Part shown: one piece after another, positions 11,554-63,906 of the stretch
Layout of the letters: each line of letters begins with the position of its first letter
How positions within the stretch are numbered: the first letter of the stretch is position 1
Assembly (NCBI GenBank): GCA_013350335.1
Contig: CM023539.1
Span: 37,682,631-37,746,630 of the forward strand
Length of the DNA stretch: 64,000 nucleotides
Reading direction: 5' to 3'
Origin: Chimonanthus salicifolius
Lineage: Eukaryota; Streptophyta; Magnoliopsida; Laurales; Calycanthaceae
Notes under the pieces: model-generated
Database searches by the model: none
What the model was told of the DNA's origin: nothing
What the model saw: the letters and a program-made list of their open reading frames with translations, nothing else
Translations under genes and position numbers: made by a program

Positions 11554-11598
11554 AGTCCCACATCGGTGGGAAAGAAAAGGAGGGGTGGTTTTATTAAG
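11554..11598 (+). promoter_or_regulatory. snRNA-type USE plus TATA-like box, TRIM left LTR
   Basis: AGTCCCACATCG at 11554-11565 matches the plant snRNA upstream sequence element RTCCCACATCG. TTATTAAG follows at 11591-11598, a gap of 25 nt. Confidence 0.6.
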
Positions 11599-12010
11599 AA
11601 GCCACTTATGTTGATTCTTGTGTGAGGCCTTCCAACCCAGTGGGGTAATGGAAACAAAACCTTGAGGGGATGGACCCCAGAGAGGACAATATCATGCTGT
11701 GTGTTATGAGCTGCGTACTCTGATACCAGGTGAGGCCTTTTGGGCTGGGCCACGTGGGCCCGGGCCCAAAAACAAAACCGTGCTGTTTTGGGCTGTGTGC
11801 GAGGCCCAAAACGGACAATATCACACTCAATCAAGCCCTAAGCCATGTGTTCGGGTCGGGTTGTTACAAATATAGTATCAGAGCCGAGTTCAACACTCAG
11901 ACTGTGTGGGCTTTCCTCCTTCCCTTGTAGTTGCTGAGTTGGACCGGATCGAGCTGGGGACGGCTCGAGAATTTAGGGGGGGCGATTGTCATACCATACC
12001 CTCCCTTAAG

Positions 12011-12055
12011 AGTCCCACATCGGTGGGAAAGAAAAGGGGGGGTGGGTTTATTAAG
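12011..12055 (+). promoter_or_regulatory. snRNA-type USE plus TATA-like box, TRIM right LTR
   Basis: AGTCCCACATCG at 12011-12022 and TTATTAAG at 12048-12055, gap 25 nt, same as the left LTR. Confidence 0.6.
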
Positions 12056-12816
12056 AAGCCACCTATGTTGATTCTTGTGTGAGGCCTTCCAACCTAGTGG
12101 GGTAGTGGAAATAAAACCTTGAGGGGGTGGACCCCAGAGAGGACAATACCATGCTGTGTGTTATGAGCTACCTACTCTGATACCAGGTGATGCCTTTTGG
12201 GCCGGGCCATGTGGGCCAGGGCCCAAAAACAAAACCGCACGGGTTTGAGCTGTGTGCGAGGCCCAAAGCGGACAATATCACACTGAATTAAGCCTTAAGC
12301 CCTGTGTTCGGGTCGGATCATTACAGTTGGCTCAGCACCCAACCGAGAAACAAGGAAAAAGAGGGAAAGAAGAGAAAGAGAAGAAAATAAGAGGAAAACC
12401 AGAGAGATAGAGGGGGATAGAGAAAGAAGAAGATCAAGGAGAAGAGAAAAATGTAAACCGGAGTACCTTAAATCGGCGAGCACGGCGGAAAAAGGGTTGG
12501 AAATTTGACGGCTGAAGGTGGAGATCACAGCCAGAGATCAGCTGCAAAGGGTGGTTTCGATCGGAGAGGCTGGAAATGCTTAGGGTTTTGGGACAAATGG
12601 GGAAGGGATTAGAGGAAGAAGAATGAGATGAAGAGAGAAAAAGAAATTAGAGAAATGAGAGAAAAGAGAAGAAGGGAGGCGAGTGAAAGAGAGGAGACGG
12701 AGAACAGAGAGAGAGGAGAGCGAAGAGAGAAGGCGAGAGAGAGGAGATTGAAAGGAAGGGGGTTTAGGGGCGGCGGTATTGTAGCAAATGTGCTATAGTG
12801 CTGTGAGAAAAGAGAA

Positions 12817-12847
<31 letters not shown>
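12817..12847 (+). repeat. uninterrupted run of 31 G
   Basis: 31 consecutive G follow the purine-rich tract (12350-12816) of the long solo LTR. A T run lies at about 12899-12913, and telomere-like AGGGTTTAGGG text at about 12864-12875. Such a run is expected to form G-quadruplexes and is prone to length error in sequencing. Confidence 0.95.
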
Positions 12848-12848
<1 letters not shown>

Positions 12849-13292
12849 GAGGGAAGATACATAGGCTAGGGTTTAGGGGTTCTAGGGTTTTAGGTTGGTT
12901 TTTTTTTTTTTTCTACAAATTAAAAATCTCAAATTTCAAAAATATTTTAAAAGCTCGAAGACATCAAATGACCAAGTCAAGGGAAAACGTGTGATTTTCA
13001 ATCTTTTAGAATGACAGAATATTCAATAATTTAAAATTACCAAAGTATCCTCTGAGTCTCCGAACTCAAAATCGGTAAACCAGGACCCACCATTAGGGGC
13101 CACACTCACCCCACTGCTACCAAGACCCTAAAACTCTGAAAAATCGGGTCGGGTTGTTACATAGGCTGTTTCTCCCTCTCCACAAGCCCATTCGTTCAGA
13201 TGGAAAAAAACGGAAGGCAAAATGGTAATTTCATCCAATTTTTTTGAAATCGGGTGTGTAGAGAAAGAAAAGTCGGGTGTCTATATGGCTGC

Positions 13293-13469
13293 ATTGGTGA
13301 GCCAACTTAAACTTGCTCCCAAAAGGCCTCGTAATAGAAGGATGAGGGTCCCAACTTATAGACCAAAAGAATTTCAAGGCACTACGCGATGTGGGACTTT
13401 GCGCCCGTACAGGCGAATTTTTTTCTCTTTGTAATACAGCTAACCCCCTCTCTTGGGTGGGGTATTACA
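13293..13469 (-). repeat. truncated small LTR, minus strand
   Basis: Read on the minus strand it starts TGTAATACCCCACCC and continues through AGTCCCACATCG, TCTATAAG, then CCTTCTATTACGAGGCCTTTTGG and GTTGGCTCACCAAT. This is the same order as the plus-strand small LTR at 15556-15750. It stops at the edge of the second foldback. The other copy of block c keeps only its first 35 bp (48895-48929). Confidence 0.8.
13355..13398 (-). promoter_or_regulatory. snRNA-type USE plus TATA box, minus strand
   Basis: Minus-strand AGTCCCACATCG (13387-13398) is followed by TCTATAAG (13355-13362) with 24 nt between. Confidence 0.6.
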
Positions 13470-14279
13470 AAACTGTGAAAGCCACACTAGCCTTTGGCCT
13501 ATTTAGCCATTATAAGTGTATGAGAACACCTGGTCTATTTAGTCTTTCTTTTTAAAAAAAAAAATTGAAATTAGTTAAAAACTAGCCATTTATGTTAAAA
13601 GTAGATATGATGAATTACAAGTGGACCAAATTCAAACTCAAAATTCTATTTATAGCCATTTGATCTTAGTGGACAAAATCTCTAAGCATCATTAAAAATT
13701 ACCTAGATAAGGATGCTTAGTGACTTTGACTTTCAAGATCAAATGACTGAAAATTGAGTTTTGAGCTCTACTTTGGTTCAATTGTAACTCATTATATTTA
13801 TTTTCAATCTAACAATTGAATTTTTACTAGTCTCAAATGAAGAAGCTTGGACCTAGTATTTTCCAAACATCGAACTCAACGTACTTATGTTCAAATGTTT
13901 ACCATTTATGTATTTTTTTTAATTTAATTTTAACGGCTTCATTGATTGATTTGAAGTAATGATATAAAAGATTTGACTATATAAGGAGAGTGAGATTTTA
14001 CTATGTTTTTATAGACTTTTCTAGGAATCTAAATTCTGAACGTCAATTTTTTTTCTATCATGACCCATGGAGAAATGCTTTTTTAGACAAATTTATGAAA
14101 CACGTCTTTAATGGCTTGACCAAATAAAATTTCAACACTTTAATCATATGCATACCTGACTTAATTCATTTAAAGAGTTGACCCTACTAAGATTAAATGG
14201 GTTGACTAGACTTAAACTAGTTACAAAACTGGACCCAATGGATCTTGACACAATTTTTTTTTATTAAATGGGGTGAACT

Positions 14280-14454
14280 CAGGGATAGAAATATCGCCCG
14301 AGATATCTAGGGTTTTGGACGCCCGATATATCTCGGCCGATACCAGATATATAGTCTGTACGGCCGATATTTGACAAAAAAGAAAGAGAGAGAGAAATAT
14401 CGGCCGATATTCATGGGACCTAGATCTCGGGCCCAACGTTTTTTCTTACCCCTG
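14280..14454. mobile_element. hAT-type MITE with CGGCCGATAT repeats
   Basis: The 175-bp insert starts CAGGGATAGAAA and ends TTTCTTACCCCTG, an inverted terminal pair. Flanking 8-mers GGTGAACT and GATGAACT differ at one base, and block c copy 2 has an unfilled GATGAACT at 49734-49741. Inside are several ATATCGGCCGATAT-like palindromes, as expected for subterminal transposase-binding repeats. No coding capacity. Confidence 0.82.
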
Positions 14455-15555
14455 GATGAACTCAATCTGAGTAGATCAAGCTCAATAGATCGATTTGACT
14501 GGGCTTATATATTAAGCTTCAATGCAACTTGTGCCGCGCCTAGCCCAAGTCCACATAATAAAACCCTGAAAAGAAAATGGTTTAGGTTGACCCAAGCTCA
14601 GATTGAGTTCATGTTTAGACTAAAATATTAAGCTTGACATAGAATTTGAGTCCGTTTGGTCTTAAAAAGAAAAAAATATTGGGTAGGATTAGGCCTATAC
14701 TTGAAAGCTCAACTCAAGCTCAGAAAACCAATTCTAGCATAGTTTATATCATGTATAATTTATATTTAATAGAATAATATAAAAAATTCCATTTTAGACC
14801 CAATATGCTCGAGCATGAATAAGTTCGCATGTACATTTCAGGTTTGGTCCTAGATATACAATCTTGGATGCTCAGGTTTTACTAATTTGAGTTGATCTAA
14901 ACTCCTCGATCTTCCCACGTTGTAGTTCTTAGCCTAAGTTGTACAAAACTTGACCCATTTGTTAAATAAGTTGATCTAACCCGAACGATCATAAATGGGC
15001 TGATTTGAACCATATGTGACTTAAATATTGTCTCATTTATTTAATGGGTTAATTCAACTCAACTCGACCCATTTATCAACCAATTTTTCTTTATATAGAT
15101 GAGTGGCAAACAAATATATAAAAATTTTAAAATAAATTCCTGCGAAAATATGTTTTTTAAAAAAAATCTATTAAAATGTATTTTCCTTTGAAGTTCATTT
15201 TCTCATAAAATCAAGAAAACATGCCCTAACGGAAAATTTGTTATGAGCTTTTGTGAGTTATAAACAAATTTTCACCACTTAGACACGAGGTCATATGCAG
15301 CAGAGCAATCGTAGGAGATAAATCAACTTTCATAAGTTTACTTTACAAGACTATGAATGTCTAAATCTCATGCATAATTCATATGTCATGTCAAGTGGAA
15401 AACAATTTGAGAAAGTAAATCTCACTAAGGAGTCACTACTGTCCATCAGTAAAAGTAATTTGACAAGTTTTTTTAACTCAACTAAAAAAACTCTGATAAG
15501 ACTAATTGACTTATTAATCAACTCCGATGGACTTGCATGACTTTTTGTGCTTTTA

Positions 15556-15750
15556 TGTAATACCCCGCCCCAAAAAGTCCCATTTTGCTAGTTGTATTGG
15601 AAATTTCCTAGTATATAAGTGGTAGTATTCCTCCTTCTAGTATGAGGCCTTCTGGGAGTAACAGCCGGTTGGCTAGCCAATTGAAAGCCGTGTGGGCTGT
15701 GTGTGAGGCTCAGAGCGGACAATATCATTCTAGCGAGATGGGTCATTACA
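15556..15750 (+). mobile_element. small solo LTR, 195 bp
   Basis: It begins TGTAATACCCCGCCCC and ends GGTCATTACA, with the 5-bp target copy TTTTA on both sides (15551-15555 and 15751-15755). Block c copy 2 shows the empty site, a single TTTTA at 50805-50809. It is related to the truncated LTR at 13293-13469 and more distantly to the TRIM LTRs. Confidence 0.92.
15576..15619 (+). promoter_or_regulatory. degenerate USE plus TATA box in the small solo LTR
   Basis: AGTCCCATTTTG at 15576-15587 is a decayed upstream element. TATATAAG follows at 15612-15619 with 24 nt between. Confidence 0.5.
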
Positions 15751-15783
15751 TTTTAAGGTATGATTAAATGAGTCACACTAAGT

Positions 15784-16001
15784 ATTTTTTTAACTCAACT
15801 AAAAAAACTCTAATAATACTAATTGACTTATTAATCAACTCCGATGGACTTGCATGACTTTTTTGTGTTATTATATAATACCCCGCTCTAAAAAGTCCCA
15901 CATTGCTAATTGCATTGGAAATTTCCTAATATATAAGTGGTAGTATTTCTCCTTCTAGCATGATGCCTTTTGGGAGCAACAGTGGGTTGGCTCGCCAATT
16001 G
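15784..16001 (+). repeat. tandem duplicate of 15468-15783, cut inside the solo LTR
   Basis: The text TTTTTTTAACTCAACTAAAA to GACTTGCATGACTTTTTTGTG and the first part of the small LTR repeat after about 316 bp. This copy of the LTR starts TATAATACCCCGC (TG lost) and stops near 16001 at GCCAATTGA, where reverse-transcriptase sequence begins abruptly. Confidence 0.82.
15894..15937 (+). promoter_or_regulatory. USE plus TATA box in the duplicated small LTR
   Basis: AGTCCCACATTG at 15894-15905 and TATATAAG at 15930-15937, 24 nt apart. Confidence 0.55.
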
Positions 16002-17365
16002 ACCTACCTACAACCATAAGGTCAAGCATTGATTATGAACAAACCTTCTCTCCTGTATCCAGAAATGACTCTTTCAGAATCATTATGGCTTTAGTGGCTC
16101 ATTATGATTTGGAGCTTCACTAAATGGATGTTAAAACCACATTTTTGAATGGTAGTTTAGATAAAGAAGTGTATATGGAACAACCTAAATGATTCTCCAT
16201 AGAGGGTAAGGAACATATGGCATGCAAATTAAAGAAATCAATTTATGGCCTTAAGCAAGCCTCCAGACAATGGTACCTTAAGTTCAATAATACTATTACC
16301 TCCTTCGGTTTTAAAGAAAACACAGTTGATTGGTGTATATACATGAAGGTAGGTGGGAGTAAGTTTATCCTTCTGATATTATATGTTGATGACATTTTGC
16401 TTGCCACTAATGATCTTGGTATGATGTTTGAAACTAAGAAGTGTCTCTCCAATAATTTTGAAATGAAAGATATGGGATAGACAACATACGTAATTGGAAT
16501 AGAGATATTCCGTGACATAACACGTGGTGTGTTAGGGTTGTCTCAGAAAGACTACATAGAAAGAATATTAAAGAGATTCGGTATGTAAAATTGTTCCTAT
16601 CAAGATGCCCCTATTCAGAAGGGAGATAAATTTAGCTTAAATTAATGTCCGCATAATGAACTTGAAAAGAAACAAATAAAGGGAATTCCTTATGCCTCAG
16701 CTGTAGGTAGCTTGATGTATGCCCAGACCTGCACCAGGCCCTGATATTAGTTTTGCTGTTAGTATGCTGGGGTGATACTAAATAAACCCTGGAATTGATC
16801 ACTGGAAAGCTGCAAAGAAAGTAATAAGGTATTTACAGGGTACTAAAGACTTCATGCTTACGTTTAAGAGGTCCAATAATCTCGAGATCATTGGCTAGTC
16901 AGATTCGAATTTTAGTGGTTACATTGATAGCAAAAAGTCAACGTTTGGTTATTTGTTACTTATGGTTGGCGGAGCAATCATCATGGAAAAGTGTCAAACA
17001 ATCTATCACTGCAACATCAACCATGGAAGCAGAATTTGTGGTGTACTATGAGGCCATTGTTCAAGGAATGTGGCTGCGGAACTTTATCTCAGGACTTGAA
17101 TTGTCGACAATATTGCCAGGCCGCTGAGAATTTACTGTGATAATTCTGCAGTGGTATCTTCTCTAAGAACGACAAGTATTCGAATGGATTGAACCACATG
17201 GAATTGAAGTACTTTGTTGTGAAAGAAGAAGTTCAGAAATAGATAGTGTCTATTGAGCACATTAGTACTTTACTTATGGTGGCAGATCCGTTGACGAAGG
17301 GATTACCTATAAAGACCTTTAACGAACATGCCAATAGAATGGATCTTGAACGTAATCTATTATGA
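16002..17365 (+). pseudogene. copia reverse transcriptase and RNase H, broken
   Basis: Recognisable motifs in order are YEQTFSPVSRNDSFRIIMALVA, MDVKTTFLNGSLDKEVYMEQ, KSIYGLKQASRQWYLKF, YVDDILLA (about 16381-16404), YASAVGSLMYAQ, a KKVIRYLQGTKD segment, a DSKKSTFGYLL RNase H segment and the C-terminal ADPLTKGLP end near 17300. In-frame stops at the equivalents of ELHQ-MD, EQPK-F, KDMG-T and others are mostly single-base changes. A frameshift near 16740 breaks the RNase H lead-in. The longest remaining open frame is 16217-16480. Confidence 0.87.
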
Positions 17366-17776
17366 TGTAATTATGTATTTTGGACTGCATTATAAATAAA
17401 TGTGCACTATTTGACATTTGAGTACTCATATATGCGTTTCTGATTATTGTTCATGTTTATTATTGTTATGTATATACATTATATGTGTTTATTTTAACGC
17501 TAACAGGAATAGTCATTATGTTATGATACTTATGTGGACCATTATGAAAAATCTCTCATTTAAGGGCTATGCTAGGTAGGTCACTTGTGTTGTAGTAATG
17601 GAAGGGATCATGTCGGGATAAGATGATGTGCAACTGCTATTGCTCACATTTGTGGTTTGTTTAGTATTAACATTATGATATTGACCACATTATTTTGTTA
17701 AATACAGTTTACGTGTACACCTTATGATATACCTGTTTTAAATCCCATGAAGTATAAATGTGGGCCAAGTGGGGAA

Positions 17777-18343
17777 TGTAAAACTAAACATGACCCACAT
17801 TAAATTTAGGGCACCACATAGAGGATATTAAATCAGGAAAACTATGTTTAAATAAGGAAGGTCTATTTTGGGAGAGTTCTAAAAGGGGTTAGTTTCCTAT
17901 TTTGATGGGACGTAGGAATAGAAAGTTTTAATTGCCTTAAGGGTTTTCCCTCTTCCTATAAAAGGGTCTCTCTCTATAATTATCCATCAACTTAAGCCAA
18001 CCCTATTTCTAAAAATACTATTTACGAAGTTGGGAGAGGGCATTAAAGAGGCAAGAGGCAGAAACCCCAAGGTGGGTGCTTTCTTTTGTTTTTGGACTTC
18101 GGGAAGTATTGACATATTAAAGGGACGATCAGATCTCACTCTTCTACATCAATGGATCCAGGTATGTCTTATGATTATTACGTTAATGATTTTCGCATTA
18201 AGATTGATCAATGTTTCAAGTATTAATCGATTTAGATCTTATGGTTATGTTATTCGGGTATGTCGAACATTTAGTTTAATGATGAATGAATGTACGATTG
18301 ATTCTCAATCAATAAACTCTGATTATTATGATGAAGTATTACA
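17777..18343 (+). repeat. copia 3' LTR, about 567 bp
   Basis: The LTR starts TGTAAAACTAAACATG directly after the polypurine tract. CTATAAAAG at about 17958 is a good TATA box. The probable end is GTATTACA at 18343, giving TGTAA/TTACA ends. A 105-residue ORF at 18030-18347 lies inside it and looks accidental. The 3' boundary is less certain because the second LTR is missing. Confidence 0.68.
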
Positions 18344-19499
18344 CTAACCCTAATATATCTCCGTAGTCACATTTATATGACTAAGATTGGTAATATTGGA
18401 AGCAATGGCTCAACTTCGAGTTTGAAAAGTATTTGGCTTTAATCTTTGTGGCCGGTGTTGGTGGTTCATTTATGCAGTGTATAATGCACAAGGGAGAAGT
18501 CTATAATAATAATTCATGGCAGAATGGAAGATGAGCACTCTTGTCGTCATTTCCCATTGAAAATAATTTTTATCTTCCACCACTACATCTAACATTTTAC
18601 AATTTCAATTTGATGTATTAATTATGATACTCCATACGTCTCATTTGAAATATTTATAATTTTTAAATAACTCTCTATATAAGACTAGCACTCAATGTAA
18701 TCTCATCAATTTTTAACACACTTTATGCTACTCCAATATAAATGTGACAACTATTTTAGGAAAATTTCAAAATTTATATAACACAACTAAATTTGGACAG
18801 AGGGATATGATTTAATATATTTTATTTTTTACAGTATTATTACTCTCATAATAATTTATCCATCTATATAATTTTTATAATTATTAATTGTGACCTACCA
18901 TCTATATAATTTTATATGTTGCACATTTCAAAATGTACATAATTTGATTAACTGCAATATCCATTGTACCAATCAAAATTTTAGAGAGAATAGGTGTAAG
19001 CTCTTTTTTCAGAGAAATTGTTTATTAATACATTAGTTGAGTTTTTCATCATCGATTAATTTGTTTACGTAAATTTTAGTCATGTTAGTCTTATAATTAT
19101 TTTTCAACTTTAATTGTTGATGCCTTGTATATTTAAATAATTAAATGGATGGTCCAATAGGATGAGATATGTCATTAGATTCAAAATTTGTGTCATGACT
19201 TAATTATGTTGTACTAAAGTTTTCACAATACTAATTCTTTAAATTCTCAAACAATGAATTGTAACTACAGTAATCATGTTGAAAATGGATAACAAAATTT
19301 AAAAAGAAGCCTTTCTTCAAACAAATTAGGCCTAATCAGTATCAAGAATATAGAGGCATAATTTTAAACTACGTAGAATTAAACAAATTATTCTCAGAGA
19401 ATAAAAAATCCAGTCCTAGCCTTTTTTCAGTGTCAGACTTTACCATTATTTAAAAGTTCAGAGTTCAAAGAATTTTATAATTTATTTATTTTTATCTTT
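18344..19499. other. AT-rich intergenic sequence
   Basis: No gene, RNA or element end was recognised. It is AT-rich with no open frame of protein-like composition. Confidence 0.5.
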
Positions 19500-20140
19500 T
19501 AATTTTGAAGTCCATAGCTATCTTGATGATGGTAATAACTCAACCCGGTATCACCCATTTTGAAGAGTTTTTTAGACTCCTAATTTGGATTTAAGAGTTG
19601 ATTAATTGCGTAGATTTCGCTGGGAGCTTTTCAATAAGTTCAAGTTTAGTTAAATCTAAACTCGAAAGCTCAGATTGAGATTATTTATAAAATTCAAACT
19701 CTTAAAATTGGTGAATTAGGTTGGTAAATTAATTAATTGCATTTTAATTCTGTGCTCTGAGTTAGATTGAAATTATTTATAATTTTTAGATTAATTCCAC
19801 CATCTTAATTGAAATTAGATGAATTTTGTGTTTTCCATGAAAATTAGATCTCTTGAATGGTTAATTTCTAATTTTAGATTTTGCTCCTATTTTTTTTACT
19901 TGCTTTCTATTTTTAGAATGTTTCTAAATTAAAATTAGATTTCTTAGATTAGAGAATTAATCCCATGTTTAAGATTTATTTTCATGATTTTCTAAATTTC
20001 TTAAAATATATAATTAAATGGTATATTTTTTACGGATATATTTTCCTAAGTTCTGATGGGTTCGACCTCGCACTCAATCGCTATATTATCTAATGGTTCG
20101 TGCGCTTAGCGAGTTATAAATTTAAAATTTACACAACAAT
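19500..20140 (+). repeat. probable gypsy LTR remnant
   Basis: 20060-20140 contains GGTTCGACCTCGCACTC, GTGCGCTTAGCGAGTTATAA and ends TTTACACAACA. The minus-strand LTR end at 33444-33545 carries the same features in the same order (GCGCTTGCGAGT, CGACCTCGCACTT reversed, TTGCACAACA). So this is the end of a related LTR in plus orientation. The left part is uncertain: 19505-19700 also resembles 27640-27720, beside the receptor-kinase duplication. No primer site follows. Confidence 0.45.
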
Positions 20141-22350: not shown

Positions 22351-22514
22351 AAACCACACAACTCAGGAAAAATAAGTTTCCAACATAGAATTAAGAGTAG
22401 ATAATGGGATTTATAGTTGAAATAAGAACAAAATGAGAAAAAGGGTTCCAAGCATGTAGCAGTTGAAATCTTGTTTGTTCCCTTGGATTGTGTTAGCAGC
22501 TGATTTAACTATCC

Positions 22515-30237: not shown

Positions 30238-30250
30238 AGTCATCATTATT

Positions 30251-31070: not shown

Positions 31071-31073
31071 CAA

Positions 31074-32605
31074 TTACTTTTTGCCCTTAGGCCCATTAAG
31101 TCTAAAGTGGAACATCTCCATGATGCACGTTGGAAGTAGTTGACAGTCCACTTCGAACTGACCCTTAGGATTGGGAATGGGTTGACTAGGGAATTTGCCA
31201 TTTTCCCTATCTGTGATAGCACTTGCAAGTTTTCCTATCTGTGTTTCAAACTTCAGTATAGCTTGGAAATTTGACTGCAATGCTTGCTGAGTAGACTGCA
31301 TGAATTGTTGCAGTGTTTCTTCCAGAGAGGGTTTATGCCGTTGTGGACCAGGTTGATAGGACTGACTCTGGGGTGGATGAAATGGCTGACCAGGTGAATA
31401 GAATGGTTGACTAGGTGCTTGCAACTGATGAGGTCCCTGATTCATGGGCTGGTTCTTACTCCATGAGAAATTAGGGTGATTCCGCCAATTGGGGTTATAG
31501 GTCGCAGAAAATGGACTCTCCTGCTGCTTCCCAAAATTATTTAGTGCGTTAGCCTGTTCAGCTAGGCACTCTGGATTTGCGTTTAAGAAAGGACAGGTAT
31601 ATGTTGTATGTCCTGGGTTAGTACACAAAGCACACACCTCAGACTGTGCACCCATTGACGGACTCACCCCTTGAGTCATTGCTAAGGCCTCTACTTTTTC
31701 AGTCAGATTTGCAATTGCGACCTTAACCTCAAAGTCATTATTGACTTCGTACAAACCTCCTCTTTTGGAAGTTTGTCCTGAACTCTCCTTTTTAGAGAAA
31801 TCCCATCGTTGAGAATTCTCTGCCAAATTTCCAAGAATTCCATCCTTCAACTTGACTTTGTTCCAAAAATGCCCCAGTTTTCATAGACTCGACCAAAGTA
31901 TGGAGATGTAGTTAAGCCATCATAGAAAAATTGAATGAGTCTCCAAGTTTCAAACCCATGATAGGAACATTTACTCAATAGATCCTTGAATCTTTCCCAT
32001 GACTTCGAGAATTGTTCACCCTCTTTCTGAATAAAATTTGAAATTTCTGTTTTGAGGGCGTTTGTTTTAGATATCGGAAAAAATTTATTCAAGAATTTAT
32101 TTACCAACTGATCCCACGTGTTGATGGAATTTGCGGGGAGGGAGTTCAGCCATGATTTTGCTTTTTCTTTGAGAGAAAAAAGAAAAAGGCGAAGTTTAAT
32201 GGATTCATCAGTGACATTTTGAAGTTTGATAGTGGCGTAAATTTCTAAAAATTCCTTAACGTGTAAGTAGGGATCCTCATGATCAAGGCCATGGAAAGCG
32301 GGGAGGAGATGTAAAAGACCTGGTTTTAGCTCATAGGTGTCATTGGTGGTTGGGATGACTATGCTGGAGGGTGTGTTGGCTACGACCGATGAAAAATAAT
32401 CTCGAAGATTTTTCTCCCATTCTCCGGCCATTTTGGGTGATGGTGGTGATGATGACGGTGGACTGTCTATATCTATGATTGGACCTGACTGAGCCCCGGA
32501 CGCAACGATCGGTGGTATGACGGACAATGTAACTCGAACCAAGCGATTAGTGGAGTCATGAGACCAATGATGTATACACAAATATGAACAAACACACTCA
32601 AACAA
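31074..32605 (-). pseudogene. gypsy gag, two frames
   Basis: The first part (32605-31847) contains a retrotransposon gag domain with LLPAFHGLDHEDPYLHVKEF, LRLFLFSLKEKAKSWLNSLP and FLNKFFPISKTNAL, which are hallmarks of the Athila/Tat gag. The second part (31850-31074) has a coiled region, one intact CCHC knuckle (CALCTNPGHTTYTC), and a Gln/Pro-rich tail with PNWRNHPNFSW. The two parts overlap by 4 bp in different frames. The text normally joining them is shortened, so a small deletion with frameshift is the simplest reading. Confidence 0.85.
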
Positions 32606-33437: not shown

Positions 33438-33443
33438 AAAACT

Positions 33444-39919: not shown

Positions 39920-41300
39920 TTGGAGCTTCTAAAATCTACTATAAATGGAATGCATATCTACTGGGCTCATTCTTTCCTCCTACCTGTGGCAGTTTCTCTC
40001 CAGATTGAAAAAACCATGCGGTTTTTCCTTTGGGGGGATCATTCGAAGAAGACTATGCATACTGTTGCTTTGGAGAAAATTTGTAGTCCCAAAGCCAAGG
40101 GTGGTCTTGGTCTTCGGCGCATTAGGAAAATCAACCTCGCTTGTCTCATGAAGCACTCTTGGAACATCGCCTCGGGAAAAGATAGTCTTTGGTTGAAATG
40201 GATTCATGAAAAGTACATCAGAAACAAGAACTATTGGGAGATTAGACCAAAAAATACGGCATCTTGGGCTTGGCGGTCTATTTTGGCTGCTAGAGACCTT
40301 GTTAGAGCAAACATTGTCTTTACCGTTGGTGATGGCTGTAAGACCAGATTTTGGTTGGATCCCTTGATCAGCCTGGGTACCCATCTCGTGAATATGATTG
40401 GTAATCGTCAAATTTATACCATGGGTCTGAATAGGAATTGCACTATTGACCATTTCATTTGTAATGGGAATTGGTCTCTGCCTGCTGCGACCTCCCACTC
40501 TTTCGTTAGCCTCTGGCATTCAATTACCTCTATCAAGCTTCCTCTAGCTAGTATTAAGGACCAGATTCTTTGGGTTGCAGACCATAGGGGAGTTTTCTCC
40601 ACTTTGTCTGCGATTGATGCTTCTTTCCCGGTCCACAACAATCCCACCTGGATTAGCAATACTTGGTTCTCTGGTTGTATCAACAAGCACTCCTTCACTG
40701 CTTTGTTGCTCTTCAATTCTGGTTTCAAGTCCAAGCAGAGGCTGATCAGGTGTGGTATCATCTGTGACGAGCTATGCACCTTGTGTTACTCTGCCACTGA
40801 GACTTCTTCCCACTTTCTTATCTACTCCTTTGTCCTATCCATGTGGGACTACATCATGAACAAATTTGGGCACCTGAGACATTCTAATAATATTTGGGAT
40901 GATCATAATGCTCTCATTGCCTCCAAGAATTGTCGTCTCGAAAAGCTTGCTGCCAATCTTACCCTTCCCACCGTCATTTGGCACTCCTGGCATGAAAGAA
41001 ACCTTCACATATTCCAGAACTGCTGCAGACCTGCCTCTGGAGTTTGCTCGGGTATCCTTCATTATATTCGGGACAGGTTTACTTCCTCCTATCCAACGAC
41101 GACCTCAGAAAGGCGAATGGTTCTTTCCTCGCCTCTTGGGATCTTCCTCTTACATCAAGTGCTCCTGCTCATCGCCCATCTATTGGTACCTCCATCAGCA
41201 TTGACCCTGCTGCTAGTTGCCTCCTCATCGACCTCTTCATTGTGGATGGCCACACCATCCTTGGTGCGTCTTTGGTCAGTAATTCTTCTCAGGGACTGAT
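39920..41300 (+). pseudogene. LINE ORF2, thumb and zf-RVT region
   Basis: A 459-codon frame continues ORF2. It has FFLWGDHSKKTMHTVALEKIC, PKAKGGLGLRRI, WRSILAARDLV, the WI-NTWFSGCINKHSF type segment and a zf-RVT pattern with CGIICDELCTLC and ETSSHFLI. These match the C-terminal part of plant L1 ORF2. The reading frame probably drifts after about 41090, and the last segment to about 41405 is read in another frame. Confidence 0.82.
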
Positions 41301-45951: not shown

Positions 45952-45982
45952 CGTGTCCGCCCTTTTTTTTTTTTTTTATAAT

Positions 45983-55880: not shown

Positions 55881-56740
55881 ACACCACTTGAGGATTTCAC
55901 CAACATTTTCCTTCATGGGTGGTGAAGAAACCTATTAAAACTCTTGTGGTCTCTTTCACGGGTAAAGACCTTACCGTTACAACTTGGATCTCTTTCACGA
56001 GTAGAAGTCGAACCTAAGGTAAACATACACTAAGAAAACATCTTTCTTGGATTTTACAAGGGTTACACCAACCCTTATAATTATCTCAATGAATAATGAA
56101 AGTTGTAGAATGTAACAAAGAACACTAGCCTCTTGTTACTTTAAGTAGCTTTGGCTTGTTCTTGAATGTCCTCCTCTTCTTGGTTTGATATAGATGCTCC
56201 AATGAAGTCCAACCAAGATAGTAATAAAGAGGTCTAGGGTAAATAATTGTTTTCCTATGAAGATTAAGACCTTAGAGAGAATCTCCACTTAACACATTCA
56301 ACTTAGAGCATAAGATGCTCAAGATATGCTTATGAGAGCTTTGAATGTGTTTGAGATTAAGATTCAAAACTTAGAGTATTTTAACTACGGAGTTTGTAAG
56401 CTATGAAAAAAGAGGCTTAGAGATGATATTCTATTGATTAATCTTTTCCTGAGATGTTTCACAATGACACATTCAAGATTGAGCCTAAGATGCTCAAGGA
56501 CTTTGCATATGAGTGCTTTGAATATGCTTGAAAATTGTTTTAGAGCAATGAGGGTATAACTATAGAGTTTTGATGCTCTAAGAATGATTGAGAGTCTTGG
56601 AGAATGTTAGAGAGTGTTTGGCTCATCAAAAATCAATGTTTGAAATGTCCTAAGGTCATATATTTAAAGCCCTCTTGAAGATATTGCCATTGGAAGTTGA
56701 AATCACAAGAATAGAGCCGTTAAAAACTTCCCGTTGCGAT

Positions 56741-56900
56741 TTCAGTCGACTGAACTTGAATATTCAGCCGACTGAAATGTCCAGAAATGACCGTTAAAAC
56801 ATCTGGGCACATTCAGTCGACTGAATTATAAGATCGAAGGCTGAAAAATCCATTTAGCAGGCTTTTCAGTCGACTGAATTATAAGATTCAGCCGACTGAA
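56741..56900. repeat. third array of 14-bp palindromes, in the SIRE solo LTR
   Basis: About six copies in three pairs: TTCAGTCGACTGAA with TTCAGCCGACTGAA partners (one badly decayed), with 9-10 bp between pair members. Confidence 0.9.
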
Positions 56901-57716
56901 AACTTGGCAGTTTTGCATACCTCCACTAAAATCCCCATAACTCGAGTTTCTGAGCTCGATTTTGGGGTGCTCTTGGGCTCATTGGAAAGATAACTGAGAG
57001 AAATATCTACTCACCAAATTTGGTCTAATTTGAAGTCAATTTGATACCTCAAATAAGCTCTCAAAGGGAGGGTATATGACAAAACTGTTTTGATCTGTTT
57101 TGCACTATTTCATTAAAATGCTCATAACTTGATCTATATATTTCCAAATTGAGTGTTCTTGGACTTTTTGAAAATCTTTTTAGTGGTCTATCAAATCATG
57201 AAAATTTTACTAATACTTGAGCACATTTGATAGGAGAAAAAGCTTCTCCAAAACAGAGCAAAACAAAACTAACCTAAGAAATCCAATTTAGTTCTATTAA
57301 ATTCAAAGTTATGGATTCTAAGGTTTATCCCAAAGGTAAATTTAGGTATTTTAAATCAATCCTAAGGTCCAAATACCTATGTTGGTAGGGATTCATGAAG
57401 TTTTTCCTTTTTCGGTGCGATGCCATCCAAATAACGCGTCTTCTCGAGCTTCAAACTTGATTTAACTATGCAGGTCTTCCAGAGGCGCGGTCTTGTATAA
57501 GTAGACGGTCACGAATCAATTAACAAAATTGACAACTAAGGATTCAGTCGGATGCAGTCACGGAATTGACAACTCAGTTTGACTCAGGGGAGAGAGATTT
57601 AACTTTTAAGCCAACAGTTCTTATCCCATTGGAAATGCAATTGCAAAATATAAACATGGGCCCAACAAAGTTGGGCCCATTCTTTTTAACTAATAACGTT
57701 ATTTCAATCTATTAGA

Positions 57717-57898
57717 CAGGGTTACAAATCTCAGTTGATACTGTGCATATCGGCTGTACTGGCGAGATTTCATTGAGATCTCATCAATATCGGCCGATAG
57801 ACATTTATACAACCAAGATTTGTTGGAAAAAAGTTAGGAGAGAGAGATATTGGCTGAGATCCGAGATATCAAGATTATCAACAATTTTTTTATCCCCG
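57717..57898. mobile_element. hAT-type MITE, 182 bp
   Basis: It starts CAGGGTTACAAATC and ends TTTTTTATCCCCG, roughly inverted to each other. Flanking 8-mers CTATTAGA and TAATTAGA match at six of eight. Inside are ATATCGGCCGATAG and related motifs. Length and motif content agree with the MITE at 14280-14454. Confidence 0.65.
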
Positions 57899-59195
57899 TA
57901 ATTAGAGCATTGAATTTTTGTCAAGTTAAAAATTTCAAAATCCATAAAAATTTCAGCCAAAAATGGCAGAATTCTTCCGTAATTTGCCTAAAATTTCAGC
58001 CTACTACAGTAATTTCAAAACTTATTACCATCAATACTCTCTCCCTCTCTCTAGATAAGGGCTATCAAGAATGTTATGTCACACTAGTAAACCCCAGGAT
58101 TAGTGAAATCATATGGGTATGATTGTCTAAAACAAAAACTTCAGGCAGGCCTCCAGTTGGCTTTGACTGATCGGTGTTACTAACTTGGATCACGAATTTG
58201 GCCGACATGTAACGGTGAAATCCCGCAACATATCACTCGCTATAATACGTGCGTAGCATTCTGTACATAAATTCAGCTGATACGCATTAAATTTGACCGT
58301 TGCCATTTTCTATTAATTTTTTCAAAAATGGTCAAAACGGGTAAATTTTCATTAATTTCTTAATATTTATTTAATGTGAAAAATGTTAATATAATGATAA
58401 AATTTGATTTTTCATTAATTTTTTATAATATTTGAAATTATCGATTTTGTATGATTCCAAAAATTAATTACGGGCTTAAATTCAGTCATTGCCACAATTT
58501 TTTGCCTTTAACTCAAGGTCGTCTCCCATCATTTTTTGATCTTTGAAGTTTTCAAACTCTCTCATTCAAAATTTTCCATGTACATGTAATTTTTTTTTAA
58601 AACCGAATTTCATTATTATGAAATATATGCTTTATGTCTATTGCAATATTTGAAATTATCAATTTCGTATGATTCAAAAAATCATTTCAATATCTAAATA
58701 ATTGCATCTTAATAATATAATTACCTACTCTTGAAGCTTAATTTTTTCTACATTTCCTATATAATTTTCAAATTTTTGAAAGAAAAAAAATCGGACAGAG
58801 AATGCGTAGCAGCTGCTGTGGGCCGATACGCTACTATAAACAAAATTTTACCCCAGATTATTAGCAGAAGGCTGCATATAAACCATTCACTAGACAAACA
58901 ATTCCTCACATTTTGAAAAAAAAAAAAAAAATCTTACATTGTAAGGTTTATTTATTACAAGGCAAGCTCTGGAGCACCAAAGGCATGCCATGAGGATATA
59001 ACCTACAGCGTGTAAGAAAAACTTGCCTCAATCTGCTTTCTTTCTACCTATTACCTCATATCTAATGATCCATTGTTATGTCAAAATTAAATGGTAAACA
59101 AGGAAAGCAGCAATCGTGAAGGGAAGACAACAACCAGACCAGATTAAGAACGACAGAGAGAGAGACATGGTCACTGTTAATCTCCACCAGGTATT
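57899..59195. other. intergenic sequence and probable 3' UTR of the gene at 59196
   Basis: No gene is seen up to about 58940. From there to 59195 lies the sequence just 3' of the stop codon of the minus-strand gene; TTTATT (an AATAAA-like signal on the minus strand) occurs at about 58949. 58130-58270 has more CGGCCGATA-like decayed repeat text. Confidence 0.5.
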
Positions 59196-59476
59196 CTACT
59201 CGTGGAGCTTCTGGATTCCAGTCCATCGAGCATAGTCAACCCACCTGTTCCAAACAGTAATAAGTATTTTAACAACTGTAGAGAAGCTTCTGTGAATTAA
59301 CTGCATTGAATTTCCAAAAAAGGAGAAAAAAAAAAAGGATTGAATCTTACATTAATGATCCCAGGTATGTGTTGCCTGTACGAACGGCAAAGCACAGAGC
59401 ACTCAACATAATCTTGTGGCGGTGCAACAAGGGTTCAAGAATCCGCTGTTCTATAACACCAGCCAGCATTTGGTAC
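59196..59476 (-). CDS. last two exons of a RETICULATA-like (DUF3411) gene, partial
   Basis: On the minus strand, exon A (59476-59351, 126 bp) follows an acceptor ACAACAG. It encodes YQMLAGVIEQRILEPLLH, then HRHKIMLSALCFAVRTGNTY, and ends LGSLM across a donor AT/GTAAG. Exon B (59244-59196) follows acceptor GGAACAG, continues in phase as WVDYARWTGIQKLHE and ends in TAG at 59196-59198. The phase fits exactly at the junction and there are no stops, so this part looks functional. The segment matches what I recall of the C-terminus of plant RETICULATA-RELATED proteins, chloroplast envelope membrane proteins that affect leaf mesophyll and vein pattern. Earlier exons were not found in the window and would lie beyond long introns on the right. 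The exon calls are firmer than the family name. Confidence 0.68.
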
Positions 59477-60769
59477 CTGTTGTGTTTTTTTTTCGACAGC
59501 AGAAGTTTATCAGTAACTCCTTAGCCTAGATCTGCTTCCATTTGCATGCACTCCGTTTTAACGAGAGACAGAGGGGTGAAAACAAGGGTGACCCTCATTT
59601 ACCCCCATTTGGTAGAGAAGAGGAGAGAAAATCTCAAGTTTTCCCTCTCAGCACAAATCTGAAATCCCCTTCACTACAAGAGGTATAATCACTTTACCTC
59701 TCCTTCAGAGTAAGTTTTTTTTTTTTTTGCTCTTATACCTTTACAACTGTAATTACCAAACAAGATAAGAGAAACGCCGGCAAAATTTACCTCTCATCCA
59801 AACAGTCTTAGCGCAAAACATTGATTAATAACCATATGTTTGTGGAGAATGTAGACAAGAAACACTAGTCTTCCAGTGCCAGTAGCAATACAGGGGTTCA
59901 TATCTTGCCTTCAACATGCATTTAGTTAAAGTTGAGGCTATAAGAGCTTCTGCTCATGAGTACTAGGGCATACATACAAAACACAAAAGGATCCTTATGT
60001 GTGTCAACAAGCTTGGACAGGTTAAAAAACCTACTAAGTTGGAGTAGCCCAAAACATGGAAGATGTGTCCAGCCAAATCCTCATTACAACAACTAGAAGA
60101 GTGAAATCTAGTCCCTCAATTTTAAATGATAATCTAGTCCTATTTCCAAACAGATAATATTGCGAATCTCATCTGAAGCTCCAAACAGTTAGACAAGAAC
60201 TTTGTAAGGGGAAAATCTTTGACAAGATAAGACATTTAATTCAATCAAGTTACCCTTCTCAAGTTGGTGGAAAATGAATAGCTGTAAAATTTGTCACTTT
60301 AACCCAATGAAATCCAGTGTCAGTATTTCTTATTACCAGTTCCAAATTGTGCTTTTCGTGTCACCACATTTTGTGTATGGCAGTACAGTGAATCAACAAA
60401 TGATAAATATAGGAGAGACAACATTATTATCCAGCTAGCTAATGAAAATAATGATGTAAAAAATAACAAATAAAGAAACACACACATTTAAAAGTTATAA
60501 GGTAGCACACTTGTTTTTGGCTGACAATGAAATACAGAGGCCTCCATCTTTTTAGAGTTGATAGGGGAGAAGAGAGGAGAAAATGTAGAAAGAGAGGGGA
60601 GTGAGAGAGGAAATACTCGTATTCGAGAGAGAGAACTACCTTTTCATGAAGAACTTGTTTGGAATGTGTTTTCTTCTTCTCTGGTTGCATCTTAATCGTT
60701 AATTTAATTTAAATAGCTTCAAGCAACGGCGGATACCTATTTTAACTTTCTAAAGAAAATATTGTATTA
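59477..60769 (-). other. probable intron of the RETICULATA-like gene
   Basis: No further exon can be recognised between the acceptor at 59477 and the SINE at 60787. The sequence is AT-rich and lacks open frames with protein-like composition. The ORF at 60439-60690 is low-complexity. Confidence 0.45.
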
Positions 60770-60786
60770 ATAAAATTCTAGAGTAA

Positions 60787-61001
60787 AACTCCAAGGGGTT
60801 GGTGTCTTGGCCACGAATCCACTTCAAGAAGGGGGAGTCTTGAATTTGAATCACATCCCACCCTAAAGGGTCACTCCTTATAGTTTTACCCAGTGTATGG
60901 GTTGGGTAGAGAGGCTTGCATATAACCCGAGGACTAGTCCAGATCTCTAAGAGTCCCTTGATACCTCGGTCATCAAAACAAATATGAAAAAAAAATAAAA
61001 A
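60787..61001 (+). mobile_element. SINE with 17-bp target duplication
   Basis: A perfect 17-bp repeat ATAAAATTCTAGAGTAA flanks it (60770-60786 and 61002-61018). The body starts AACTCCAAGGGGTTGGTGTC, has a weak B-box-like TTGAATTTGAATCAC, and ends in an A-rich tail with AAAAAAAAATAAAA. Long target copies and an A-rich tail show LINE-mediated retroposition. Its 3' half differs from the SINEs at 30088 and 50841. Confidence 0.88.
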
Positions 61002-61018
61002 ATAAAATTCTAGAGTAA

Positions 61019-61729
61019 CTATTCCCATAGAAAATAATTTTACAAAATACTGAACTACGTTAACATTTTTCCTTTAACAAATAGTTGCAGCTATCCTAAT
61101 CTCAACGTTTTGATCCAACATGATTCATTTACCAAATCCACAAAATAAAAAAAGAGTTGCATAAATATCTGAAAACATAAGATAAAATTTTATAGGAACA
61201 ATCTCAACAAAGTGACAAACCATGGATGATGCAAAAACCAACTTTTCATATTTTTTTTTCTTTTCTAGAGTATGTAGAAGTAGCATAGGACAGTTTTGTG
61301 AAGGATATTTAGCTAGAAAATTGTCCTTCCTATCACTTACTCCAACTTCAAATTTACAAAATTCAATCAAACATGTTGAAATTTCATTGTTTTAATATCT
61401 CTGTTTAATACTCCCTAATAGAGTGCACATAAAAGAGTCAAAATAAAATTTTATGCCCATGAAACCAATCATGTTCAACCATATGCATTTAAGACAAAAC
61501 AGTCATGCACTCTATGAGTAGACATTTATGGTTTGAGACATGTTGTGCACAATCGAGCATACAGATCAAACAAAACTAATCCACGACGCTTTTGTATGAG
61601 GTAGTAGAGAAACAAAAAAGCATACAGCATTATAAATATTGAGTCTTAGAAAGTTAAAAATTTAGCAAATAACTTGATTTTTGCAAAATGGAATACACAA
61701 AACTTTCACCAAGTACATGTATATATACA
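61019..61729. other. AT-rich non-coding sequence
   Basis: Nothing recognised up to the hAT target copy at 61730, apart from the beginning of a tandem duplication at about 61702 (AACTTTCACCAAGTACATG). Confidence 0.5.
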
Positions 61730-61737
61730 ACATGGCC

Positions 61738-63056
61738 CAATGTTTTCAAACTCGACTCGGATTGTGAATCTATCTAGAGGTGTGACTCGTTAATCGTAAA
61801 TCGTAAATCGTAGAATTGTAAGAGTTTTAACATTTTTAACTTTTTTTACTATAATTATTATTTATTGATTTAGTTATTGATTTAATGATTTAAATTAACT
61901 GATTTAGTTTAATAATGTTAAAGGTCGAAGTGGAGTTCTACTATCAATTCTATTTATTTAATAAAATTATAAATATTGTTGAATCAAAATTTATTTCTAG
62001 AGTCAATATAGTAAAAAATTCTAATTTAATTTGATAAGATATTATATTCAATAATTAACATTTTATTAAAACTAAACTGAGACGCTGAACTTATTTCTCA
62101 TAATGCATTATTAATATAGATAGTGCACTATTATTGTTATTATTTAAACTCCATTTCTTATCAAATCCCTGAAATTAATTTATTATTTCTTTTCCATAGA
62201 AATATGTTCGGATAAGGTCCAAGTAAAGTGAAAGAGTAAATGTCCCATTAAAAAAAAATAATCATCCCAAAAAAAAAAAAAGGATAAAAAAATATCAATA
62301 CAAGATTTAAACATACATAATTAAATATTAAGTGCATAAATTGTTTTCTATTATTAGAAAACTGTATTTTTATATTTATAATGTATATATAAAATATGGT
62401 ATTATATTTTACAGATTACAATATACTGACATATATAGTTATATAGTATTTATAATTTCAGTATTAGACTATTAGTAATTTAGTATTATAAAAAGATCTA
62501 CATAATATGATAAAAAAATATTTACAGTATTACAGTATATAAGATGCAATTGATTATTGAGGTTAAAAAAATAATACTATATATATAATATGCGAATGGG
62601 TAAAAAAAATCTAGCACCGGAACTTTACTTTCACAATTTTGTCACATGTCATTTTTGCTTTCACATCAAGGATAAAAATATTAAAATATAAGAATGAAAG
62701 AAAGGAAAGGGGTTTCAGCTTTCGTTGAAAACGAAAAAAGAGAGGAAAGGTTTACGAAAACCAGAGGAGTGGTTTTTGAGGGACGACAGCGATGCAGAGG
62801 GGCGACAAAGAAGAAAAAAAGAGGAAGAGGATTCTCTGTGTCTTCCCCTTTTTTTTTTAACTGATTTTTCTTCTTTTTCTTTTCTATTTTTCCTCTTCAT
62901 CGCACGATGGTGCAATTGCCGATTTTGGAATAACACAATCTTCGATTTTCGCAAAACTTGGCCGATTAATGGGTTTTTTCGATTGAACCAGCGAATTGAC
63001 TCACTAGACCATCCGCGCCGAGTCGACTCGCAACTCGGACAATTTTAACAACACTG
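61738..63056. mobile_element. non-autonomous hAT element, 1319 bp
   Basis: Termini CAATGTTTTCAAA and (other strand) CAGTGTTGTTAAAA are inverted, and both continue into CGACTCGG-like text. A perfect 8-bp target copy ACATGGCC flanks the element (61730-61737 and 63057-63064), which is diagnostic of hAT. A nearby duplicate of the flanks (63206-63360) contains a single ACATGGCC, an empty site. No transposase motif was seen. The centre is AT-rich; 62700-62900 carries purine- and pyrimidine-rich stretches with overlapping ORFs on both strands that I regard as accidental. Confidence 0.92.
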
Positions 63057-63064
63057 ACATGGCC

Positions 63065-63411
63065 CACCAAAATTGAATTTGTATTACACAATTGAATGTG
63101 TATTACACAACTTTCCATTATAATGTACAATAATTATTTTATTCTAGATCATATAATTTTTATTTAAAAAATAATCAAACTTTCCAAATTTAAGCCTAAA
63201 ATCAAACTTTCACCAAGTACATGTATATATACAACATGGCCCACCAAACTTGAATGTGTATTACACAACTTTCTATTATAATAATAATTATTATTTTATT
63301 CTAGATCATATACTTTTTATTTAAACTTTCCAAATTTTAGCCTAAGATCCTTTTTTCTTAACAATTTTTTACTCAATTTTCCACAAAAAATTTCGAAGGT
63401 TAGATAATAAT
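63065..63411. repeat. tandem duplication around the hAT target
   Basis: AACTTTCACCAAGTACATGTAT...ACATGGCCCACCAAA...GTATTACACAACTTTC...TTCTAGATCATATA occurs once split by the hAT element (61702-61737 plus 63065-63175) and again uninterrupted at about 63206-63330. Within the first copy, GAAT-TGTATTACACAA is itself repeated. Confidence 0.88.
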
Positions 63412-63497
63412 TGTGATGACCCGCCCCAGAGGGGGACCCTGAGAGGACGCCCAACTTGACTAAAAATTAGCCAGGTTGGCATTGGGAGCATGTTGAG

Positions 63498-63542
63498 AGT
63501 CCCACATCGCCTCTGTGGGTAGAAATCAAGCCAGTATATAAG
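63498..63542 (+). promoter_or_regulatory. snRNA-type USE plus TATA box, TRIM left LTR
   Basis: AGTCCCACATCG at 63498-63509, TATATAAG at 63535-63542, 25 nt between. Confidence 0.65.
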
Positions 63543-63861
63543 TTTGACTCTCCTCCTTCATAGCACAACGTGTTTGGGGGCCTCCTTTGAATGGGTCCTC
63601 AATGCAAAGCCATGTGGGTCCCGCCTGTGGGCCCAGAGCAGACAATATTGTGCTAGGAAGGCCCAGGGTGTTACAAATGGTATCAGAGCTGGTTCAACTC
63701 TCAGACGGTGGTGTGGGACTGGATTGTGTGTGTAGAGCCAGGGGCGGCTCTAGCTTTAAGGGGGTTAGGATGTGATGACTCGCCCCAGAGGGGGACCCTG
63801 AGAGCAGAGGATGCCCAATCTGGCTAAAAAGTAGCCAGGTTGGCGTTGGGAGCATGTTGAG

Positions 63862-63906
63862 AGTCCCACATCGCCTATGTTGGTAGAAATCAAGCCAGTA
63901 TATAAG
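63862..63906 (+). promoter_or_regulatory. snRNA-type USE plus TATA box, TRIM right LTR
   Basis: AGTCCCACATCG at 63862-63873, TATATAAG at 63899-63906, 25 nt between. Confidence 0.65.

Follow-up and report, generated by a model that had tools for sequence, protein, structure and literature searches.

We wanted to establish what kind of promoter is carried by the small long terminal repeats (LTRs) in a 64,000-nt stretch of DNA from Chimonanthus salicifolius (CM023539.1, positions 37,682,631 to 37,746,630; below, the window). These LTRs combine an upstream sequence element (USE) of plant small nuclear RNA (snRNA) genes, AGTCCCACATCG, with a TATA-like box at the distance that we observed in U6 genes of the same genome. 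An snRNA-type promoter in U6 geometry inside the LTRs of terminal-repeat retrotransposons in miniature (TRIMs) appears well supported by the sequence comparisons described here. Our best explanation, held with slightly more than even confidence, is that the elements are TRIM-type, non-coding miniature LTR retrotransposons with a type 3 (USE and TATA) promoter in the geometry of U6 and RNA polymerase III (Pol III). Actual transcription by Pol III we judge to be about evenly balanced. Further, the LTRs share a domain closed by a helix downstream of the promoter. This second, independent result is a candidate for a new RNA family, and its covariation is strong.

The original prediction described seven LTR copies in which the motif is followed by a TATA-like box after 24 or 25 nt, and we found all seven. 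AGTCCCACATCG or a near form of it preceded the box in every copy. The distance from the end of the USE to the box was 24 nt at 11554, 12011, 13398 (minus strand), 15576 and 15894, and 25 nt at 63498 and 63862. The motif had been identified as the plant snRNA upstream element RTCCCACATCG, which proved correct: the exact 11-mer was present five times in the window (11555, 12012, 13387 on the minus strand, 63499 and 63863), the copy at 15895 had one mismatch, and the decayed copy at 15576, AGTCCCATTTTG, had three. A further one-mismatch motif, GTCCCACATGG, was present outside the seven copies, at 40839-40849 on the minus strand.

The seven copies occupy four loci, and not five as was first stated. 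These are a two-LTR element (element A), a truncated LTR on the minus strand, a solo LTR with its tandem copy, and another two-LTR element (element B). Element A (11529-12325, 797 bp) has LTRs of 340 and 339 bp that are 91.4% identical, an internal part of 118 bp and a 5-bp duplication, GTTGG/GTTGG. Its primer-binding site (PBS) is a one-base variant. The solo LTR was later duplicated in tandem together with 79 nt of flank (the flank repeats at 317 nt), which gave rise to the copy at 15894. Element B begins at 63412 and runs past the window end; it has an LTR of 264 bp and an internal part of 95 bp. The features of TRIMs were therefore present, namely short LTRs, a tiny internal part, a PBS and a purine tract, with 5-bp duplications in element A and the solo LTR. 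In the list below, R1 denotes the covariance model of the shared domain and P1 the helix that closes it.

11529-11868, plus strand: LTR 1 of element A (TGTGATACCC...GTTACA), 340 bp; GTTGG flanks the whole element on both sides.
11554-11565, plus strand: USE AGTCCCACATCG of element A LTR 1.
11590-11598, plus strand: TATA-like box TTTATTAAG, 24 nt past the USE.
11607-11712, plus strand: R1 domain, first copy, in element A LTR 1; 38.2 bits, E 1.1e-7.
11716-11841, plus strand: R1 domain, second tandem copy, in element A LTR 1; 86.4 bits, E 4.3e-20.
11869-11986, plus strand: internal part of element A, with PBS-like TAGTATCAGAGC and a purine tract.
11987-12325, plus strand: LTR 2 of element A, 339 bp.
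12011-12022 and 12047-12055, plus strand: USE AGTCCCACATCG and TATA-like TTTATTAAG of element A LTR 2.
12064-12169 and 12173-12298, plus strand: two tandem R1 domains of element A LTR 2; 31.5 and 90.8 bits.
13280-13469, minus strand: truncated LTR; USE at 13387-13398, TATA-like TCTATAAG at 13355-13362.
15556-15750, plus strand: solo LTR, 195 bp; decayed USE AGTCCCATTTTG at 15576-15587, TATATAAG at 15612-15619; TTTTA/TTTTA duplication.
15627-15748, plus strand: R1 domain of the solo LTR; 74.8 bits.
15874-16002, plus strand: truncated second copy of the solo LTR; USE AGTCCCACATTG at 15894-15905, TATATAAG at 15930-15937.
63412-63675, plus strand: LTR 1 of element B (TGTGATGACCC...GTTACA), 264 bp.
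63498-63509, plus strand: USE AGTCCCACATCG of element B LTR 1.
63535-63542, plus strand: TATA box TATATAAG, 25 nt past the USE.
63550-63668, plus strand: R1 domain of element B LTR 1; 84.8 bits, E 1.1e-19.
63560-63568, plus strand: 5' arm of P1, ATAGCACAA, site of the predicted RNA start; 8 of 9 pairs.
63648-63656, plus strand: 3' arm of P1, TTGTGCTAG, behind the conserved ACAATAT.
63676-63770, plus strand: internal part of element B, 95 bp; PBS TGGTATCAGAGC at 63678-63689, which we take to be of the initiator Met tRNA type; purine tract AAGGGGGTTAGGA before 63771.
63771-64000, plus strand: LTR 2 of element B, ended by the window edge; USE at 63862-63873, TATATAAG at 63899-63906.
63911-64000, plus strand: R1 domain of element B LTR 2, ended by the window edge; 45 bits.

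Six window copies of R1 scored 31.5-90.8 bits. The match in the minus-strand truncated LTR (13291; 11.6 bits, E 0.78) was not significant alone, the one in the truncated tandem copy was weak (17.2 bits at 15945), and a minus-strand match at 12165-12291 (12 bits, E 0.62) was set aside.

We searched the genome (852.6 Mb) for the same arrangement. AGTCCCACATCG was present 6236 times, while its letters read backwards were found 25 times. The sampled motif places were all 100 listed of these 6236, all within the first 8.4 Mb of contig C1, and removal of redundancy left 52. Of the 100 sampled sites, 77 had a TATA-like hexamer that started 22-28 nt past the motif, whereas no other downstream window tried had one in more than 6 of 100. 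Among the nonredundant sites the figure was 38 of 52, with no more than 4 elsewhere downstream and 6 upstream. Hexamer matches at offsets 24, 25 and 26 numbered 47, 11 and 50 over the 100 sites, where one site may count twice. The 23 sites without a hexamer mostly had a near-TATA sequence (TTTATTTG, CTTATGTG, TTCATAAG) at the equal position. In the profile over the 52 sites the TATA peak reached approximately 1 bit and was flanked by a purine-rich spacer and a pyrimidine tract; a second peak, TTTTGG, lay at about 63-68 nt.

Genome-wide, a spacer of 22-27 nt gave 903 matches and a spacer of 30-37 nt (with TATAWA) gave 121; these are counts of pattern matches, with a few places counted more than once (TATATATA). 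Reversed controls gave 0 in both bands. Among the 100 listed from the short band, which come from a part of C1, 58 had a spacing of 24 and 23 a spacing of 26, while 61 of the 100 listed from the long band had 33. The short and long spacings thus formed separate peaks.

Host genes served as yardsticks for these distances. For U6 (RF00026), 48 matches were found and 30 of the loci extracted; a start was readable in 24 and was taken from the U6 sequence and not from mapped RNA. The USE was present with 0-1 mismatch at 15 of the 24 loci; the other nine were without it (4-6 mismatches). From the USE to the U6 sequence we measured 53-54 nt in 14 of the 15 motif-bearing loci and 49 in one, and the U6 loci with a USE had TTATAA-like boxes 24-25 nt past the motif. 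U1 (RF00003) gave 42 matches, 27 of them above the family cut-off, and these were compared with the long-spacing band, through 49 of the 100 long-spacing places listed of 121. An exact USE with TATAWA at 33-34 nt was found at 9 of the 42 matches (7 of the 9 above cut-off), and the distance from USE to U1 match was 61-65 nt in eight of them and 124 in the remaining one. The USE-TATA spacing of the LTRs, 24-26 nt, is of the U6 class and about one helical turn below that of the motif-bearing U1 loci.

The view that 24-25 nt is the short, Pol III form was thus borne out by the host genes. PMC9845283 places the USE of U6 and U3 one helical turn closer than in genes of RNA polymerase II (Pol II), PMC9841428 and PMC9845283 report that the USE-TATA distance determines the polymerase in land plants, and PMC11961915 describes spacing as a major determinant for Pol III.

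The long-spacing band gave some observations of its own. L044 and L065, sampled sites with 33-34 nt spacing, had no R1 domain, and neither gave an Rfam match that would point to an snRNA gene. Nine of the 121 long-spacing matches pair with U1, and among the others there may be so far unknown snRNA-like genes of Pol II type, or relics. Four weak matches to the U2 family, 121-125 nt long (C1:31570515, C1:39702635, C1:40372733 and C4:69394384) had a long-spacing USE approximately 136-141 nt upstream, which is unusual for an snRNA gene.

We wanted to know whether the motif and its spacing are conserved above the surrounding LTR, as the original prediction expected. With the R1 model, which was built on the downstream domain, 131 matches were obtained from 77 loci; the U6 loci contributed 13 and the window 10, of which 8 were used. 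These matches are not all independent, because LTR partners of sampled sites are included and most loci were picked for holding the motif. There was enough upstream DNA at 150 of the 152 matches: 77 had the exact motif in place, one had it displaced, and 72 were without an exact motif. In 52 of the 72 a motif with 1-3 mismatches was found at -49 to -53; the three controls, a reversed motif and two displaced windows, gave 0 of 72. Among the remaining 20, nine were the second copy of a tandem pair of domains, which begins at a greater distance from the motif, and the others were truncated or rearranged.

LTR lengths, and the T-run counts in 40 LTR segments given below, were obtained after sites in 8 loci had been left out. 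The USE-to-TATA distance (standard deviation 1.0, n = 34 of 44 sites) and the distance from the USE to the conserved T-run (0.96, n = 38) were near-constant, with the limitation that the search for TATA and T-run used bounded windows, which restricts both spreads. The distance from LTR start to USE (27, n = 31) and from T-run to CAATAT (9.2, n = 35) varied. The motif and its position were conserved also in copies found without use of the motif, and the flanking lengths changed.

The original prediction also held that the LTR groups otherwise share little. This did not stand, as alignment and covariance-model matches revealed a common downstream domain of approximately 118 nt. It was present in 73 of the 100 sampled sites and 38 of the 52 nonredundant ones, and started 25-50 nt past the motif, usually at about 41. 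The alignment comprised 39 nonredundant copies and two window copies; 13 of the 52 nonredundant sites were left out (domain motif lacking, deletion, or a nested second domain). Conserved within R1 were TTTTGGGCC, CAAAACCGTG and GGCCCAAAGCGGACAATAT.

Unguided RNAalifold folding returned one helix of five pairs with compensatory changes in every pair. It forms the inner part of P1, a helix of nine pairs (alignment columns 13-21 with 118-126). Paired cells in P1 amounted to 82.6%, compared with 68.5% in shuffled and 32-48% in slid alignments; cells changed on both sides numbered 77 versus 26.8; and the covariation score was 0.521 versus 0.254. None of 500 shuffles reached any of these values. In a larger set of 53 nonredundant copies pairing was 85.7% and double changes numbered 102 versus 34.8 (0 of 300 shuffles). 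The arms are wholly different between families, for example CCATCACAA/TTGTGATGG and TCAGTATCA/TGATACTGA. Two further hairpins, P2 and P3, were tried and rejected: their arms were complementary and conserved, yet showed little or no compensatory excess over shuffles, and the inner pairs of P2, although slightly above shuffles in pairing, fitted better when slid by one column. For this reason we claim P1 only.

At gathering scores Rfam gave no match in 16 loci or in the window LTRs. When L036:1000-1250 was compared with Rfam at E up to 5, just a 10-bit match to an unrelated family was obtained. In viral contigs we found three exact pattern matches, all without the R1 domain, and the conserved core gave none.

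The position of P1 agrees with the promoter. Its 5' arm covers nt 51-59 past the motif, with shifts of one or two nt between families, and the geometry of U6 predicts a start at nt 54 or 55. The start predicted from the promoter thus falls on the closing helix of the domain, and the pairs that have the most double changes are at about nt 54-58. From this positional agreement we infer that the RNA may start at P1.

Under our preferred explanation, a host snRNA activator would bind the USE and recruit the Pol III form of the machinery. The RNA would begin approximately 54-55 nt past the USE, at P1. It would include what remains of the first LTR, then the Met-tRNA-type primer site and the short internal part, and would reach into the second LTR. 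It would then be copied by the proteins of an autonomous partner. A candidate for the RNA end is the conserved TTTT about 10 nt past the start; R would then be as short as about a dozen nt. We put forward more tentatively, as a fuller version that is possible but rather doubtful, a large and diverse class of plant TRIMs with a gene-external Pol III promoter of U6 type in U3, a start exactly at the covarying helix of a new RNA family of approximately 110-120 nt, and a conserved TTTT about ten nt on that terminates in the 3' LTR only, leaving an R of about a dozen nt; thousands of ready-made U6-type promoters would then have been spread over the genome by these elements.

Several copies depart from the simple arrangement. 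R1 was doubled in tandem in the window (11607-11841 and 12064-12298) and in L013, L054 and L052:4313-4534. By eye, the inner arms of double-domain LTRs look decayed, and in most of seven copies the start-side arm forms Watson-Crick pairs with the far 3' arm at least as well as with the near arm; with G-U pairs allowed, the near arm pairs as well or better in some copies (11554), and only about three families are concerned. In many LTRs (L052, L051, L013, L080 and others) an inverted copy of the motif directly precedes the USE, for example CCGATGTGGGAG then AGTCCCACATCGG. The USE of such LTRs is therefore a near-palindrome and could face both ways. At L019:3198-4405 and L020 a different TRIM-like unit, approximately 309 bp long, is repeated in tandem, each time with a USE and TTATAA at 24 nt. 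L045-L050 (C1:5.21-5.48 Mb) comprise six same-orientation copies of USE and TATA; the L045 copy follows an apparent aldo-keto-reductase exon (by eye), and the group may have duplicated along with a gene array.

A number of observations weigh against the Pol III explanation or against its supports. The main reason why our confidence is not higher is that T-runs were not depleted: the terminator depletion that could have been a sign of Pol III was not found. In 11 nonredundant two-LTR elements there were 20 runs of T4 or longer versus 13.6 expected, the conserved run included. Past the conserved T-run, 40 LTR segments held 10 runs of T5 or longer versus 2.4 +/- 1.4 expected, and 15 of T4 or longer versus 10.1. 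Runs of A4 or longer were also in excess in these segments (42 versus 28.0), while those of A5 or longer were not (8 versus 9.1). T5+ runs were present in 10 of the 40 segments, so that simple full-length elongation by Pol III is doubtful for this quarter. In 35 of 44 sites the conserved TTTT is itself found, approximately 10 nt past the predicted start, and element A has two T4 runs; element B has no run of T4 or longer from 63564 to the next USE. Further, 27 of the 100 sampled sites had no R1 in place. Among these were the tandem arrays L019 and L020, the L045-L050 group, double-domain LTRs and L015, and 22 of the 27 still had a TATA-like box at 22-28 nt. L015 adjoins a gypsy gag-pol; if it is that gypsy's own LTR, a long coding element would use the same promoter. 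By the patterns tried no PBS was found for it, and no second LTR was seen in the stretch examined. For P1, the unguided consensus energy was just -0.33 kcal/mol, and neither the number of pairs with any double change (8 versus 6.6; 56 of 500 shuffles) nor the number of pair types (20 versus 17.7; 25 of 500) stood far above shuffles. Finally, 33 of the 42 U1 matches were unlinked to an exact long-spacing place, on the basis of the 49 places compared out of 121.

Pol III reads through single T4 runs in other settings. The RNA of Cassandra is also reported to end at a site present in both LTRs. In summary, the promoter geometry favours Pol III but the body of many families does not. The claim that an snRNA-type machinery transcribes these elements has accordingly been upheld in part: the snRNA-type promoter in Pol III geometry stood, by host U6 and U1 spacing and by conservation in copies found without use of the motif, while transcription by Pol III is predicted from it and the enriched T5+ runs speak against it.

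The same observations could be accounted for if the snRNA-type promoter were real and Pol II made a capped, polyadenylated RNA, the short spacing being tolerated or due to LTR-specific factors. R1 would then be an R/U5 structure for 3'-end formation or priming, and the ACAATAT just before the 3' arm of P1 could presumably be an A-rich near-upstream element. Enriched T5+ runs, the conserved TTTT directly after the start and the possible use of the promoter by a long element (L015) agree with this. The LTR spacing, however, equals that of U6 and is unlike that of the motif-bearing U1 matches of the same genome, and reports on land plants assign the choice of polymerase to the spacing (PMC9841428, PMC9845283). 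We regard transcription by Pol II as a serious minority possibility. It is also conceivable that each LTR is a small Pol III gene, with a P1-closed RNA of approximately 100-150 nt ending at a T-run of U5 and the full-length RNA arising by rare read-through or from outside promoters. The promoter and the P1-closed domain do lie inside one LTR, several families have T5-T7 runs no more than tens of nt further on, and a solo LTR has retained the unit; but a T5+ run is absent there from 30 of 40 segments and double-domain LTRs alter the unit length, so we think this improbable.

An explanation by descent only, in which one ancestral LTR captured a U6-like promoter that has since been kept as a relic, would fit the finding that a single similarity cluster holds 76 of the 100 sampled sites and that R1-bearing LTRs can be aligned with one another. 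It does not fit a USE-TATA distance that stays fixed while the spacer sequence and the surrounding LTR lengths diverge, nor the compensatory change in P1, and we give it very little weight. As for a chance pairing of a frequent word with an AT-rich box, the loose motif (up to 2 mismatches) alone was just modestly above chance in the window, because 28 matches were found compared with 16.0 +/- 4.0 in shuffles. The reversed-pattern controls (25 versus 6236 and 0 versus 903) already refute such pairing, and we assign it next to no probability.

Three further features of the window were observed. A plant snoRNA, snoR71 (RF00097), is present at 31953-32059 on the plus strand (60.1 bits); it was the sole Rfam match of the window. 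A run of 31 G at 12817-12847 is possibly an assembly or sequencing artefact. Directly past the truncated LTR at 15874-16002, a degenerate copia-type reverse transcriptase with in-frame stops was seen by eye at 16010-16500.

If the preferred explanation is true, LTR retrotransposons have adopted gene-external Pol III promoters besides the gene-internal type, and thousands of natural copies would be available to test whether the USE-TATA distance selects the polymerase. Annotation of non-coding RNA genes or guide-RNA promoters by USE and TATA would meet approximately 900 short-spacing matches in this genome; at least 73 of the 100 sampled motif places are LTRs with an R1 domain. The P1-closed domain, of which we found no description in the literature searched, aids recognition of very divergent TRIM LTRs.

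Among known systems, plant U6 and U3 genes have the same USE, and U6 here has also the same USE-TATA spacing and predicted start distance. Our elements differ from these genes in being mobile LTRs with a downstream domain for which no Rfam family, that of U6 included, matched in the loci tested. Pol II snRNA genes such as U1 share the USE and the TATA box, but their spacer is 33-34 nt in the nine exact-motif U1 matches. A Met-tRNA-type PBS is found in plant TRIM and SMART elements as well. These elements, as described by Gao 2016 (PMC4717578), are alike also in two short LTRs, a tiny internal part, 5-bp duplications and tandem arrays; the words promoter and snRNA are absent from the main text of that survey. 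TRIMs with Pol III promoters are named TRIMp3 by Kojima 2024 (PMC10886601) and include Cassandra (5S), Helenus (tRNA) and Ajax (5S). As presented there, they resemble our elements in being miniature LTR elements with a PBS and a purine tract, in an LTR with a Pol III promoter of host small-RNA type, in copy numbers that can reach thousands and in a short RNA terminal repeat (18 bp in Cassandra). TRIMp3 promoters are gene-internal, made of 5S or tRNA boxes with small-RNA-derived sequence (PMC10886601), whereas here the USE and TATA are gene-external; the main text of that paper contains neither snRNA nor TATA. In the LTRs tested here (Rfam, 16 loci and the window LTRs) we detected no 5S- or tRNA-derived sequence. 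Among the literature matches listed, in a search that subscription journals mostly lie outside, there was no snRNA-type promoter in an LTR and nothing relevant past TRIMp3. Because TRIMp3 members are not gene-external and no snRNA-type LTR promoter appeared in that search, we lean towards the view that LTRs with a type 3 promoter may be a new kind, beside the 5S-derived LTRs of Cassandra and the tRNA-derived LTRs of Helenus.

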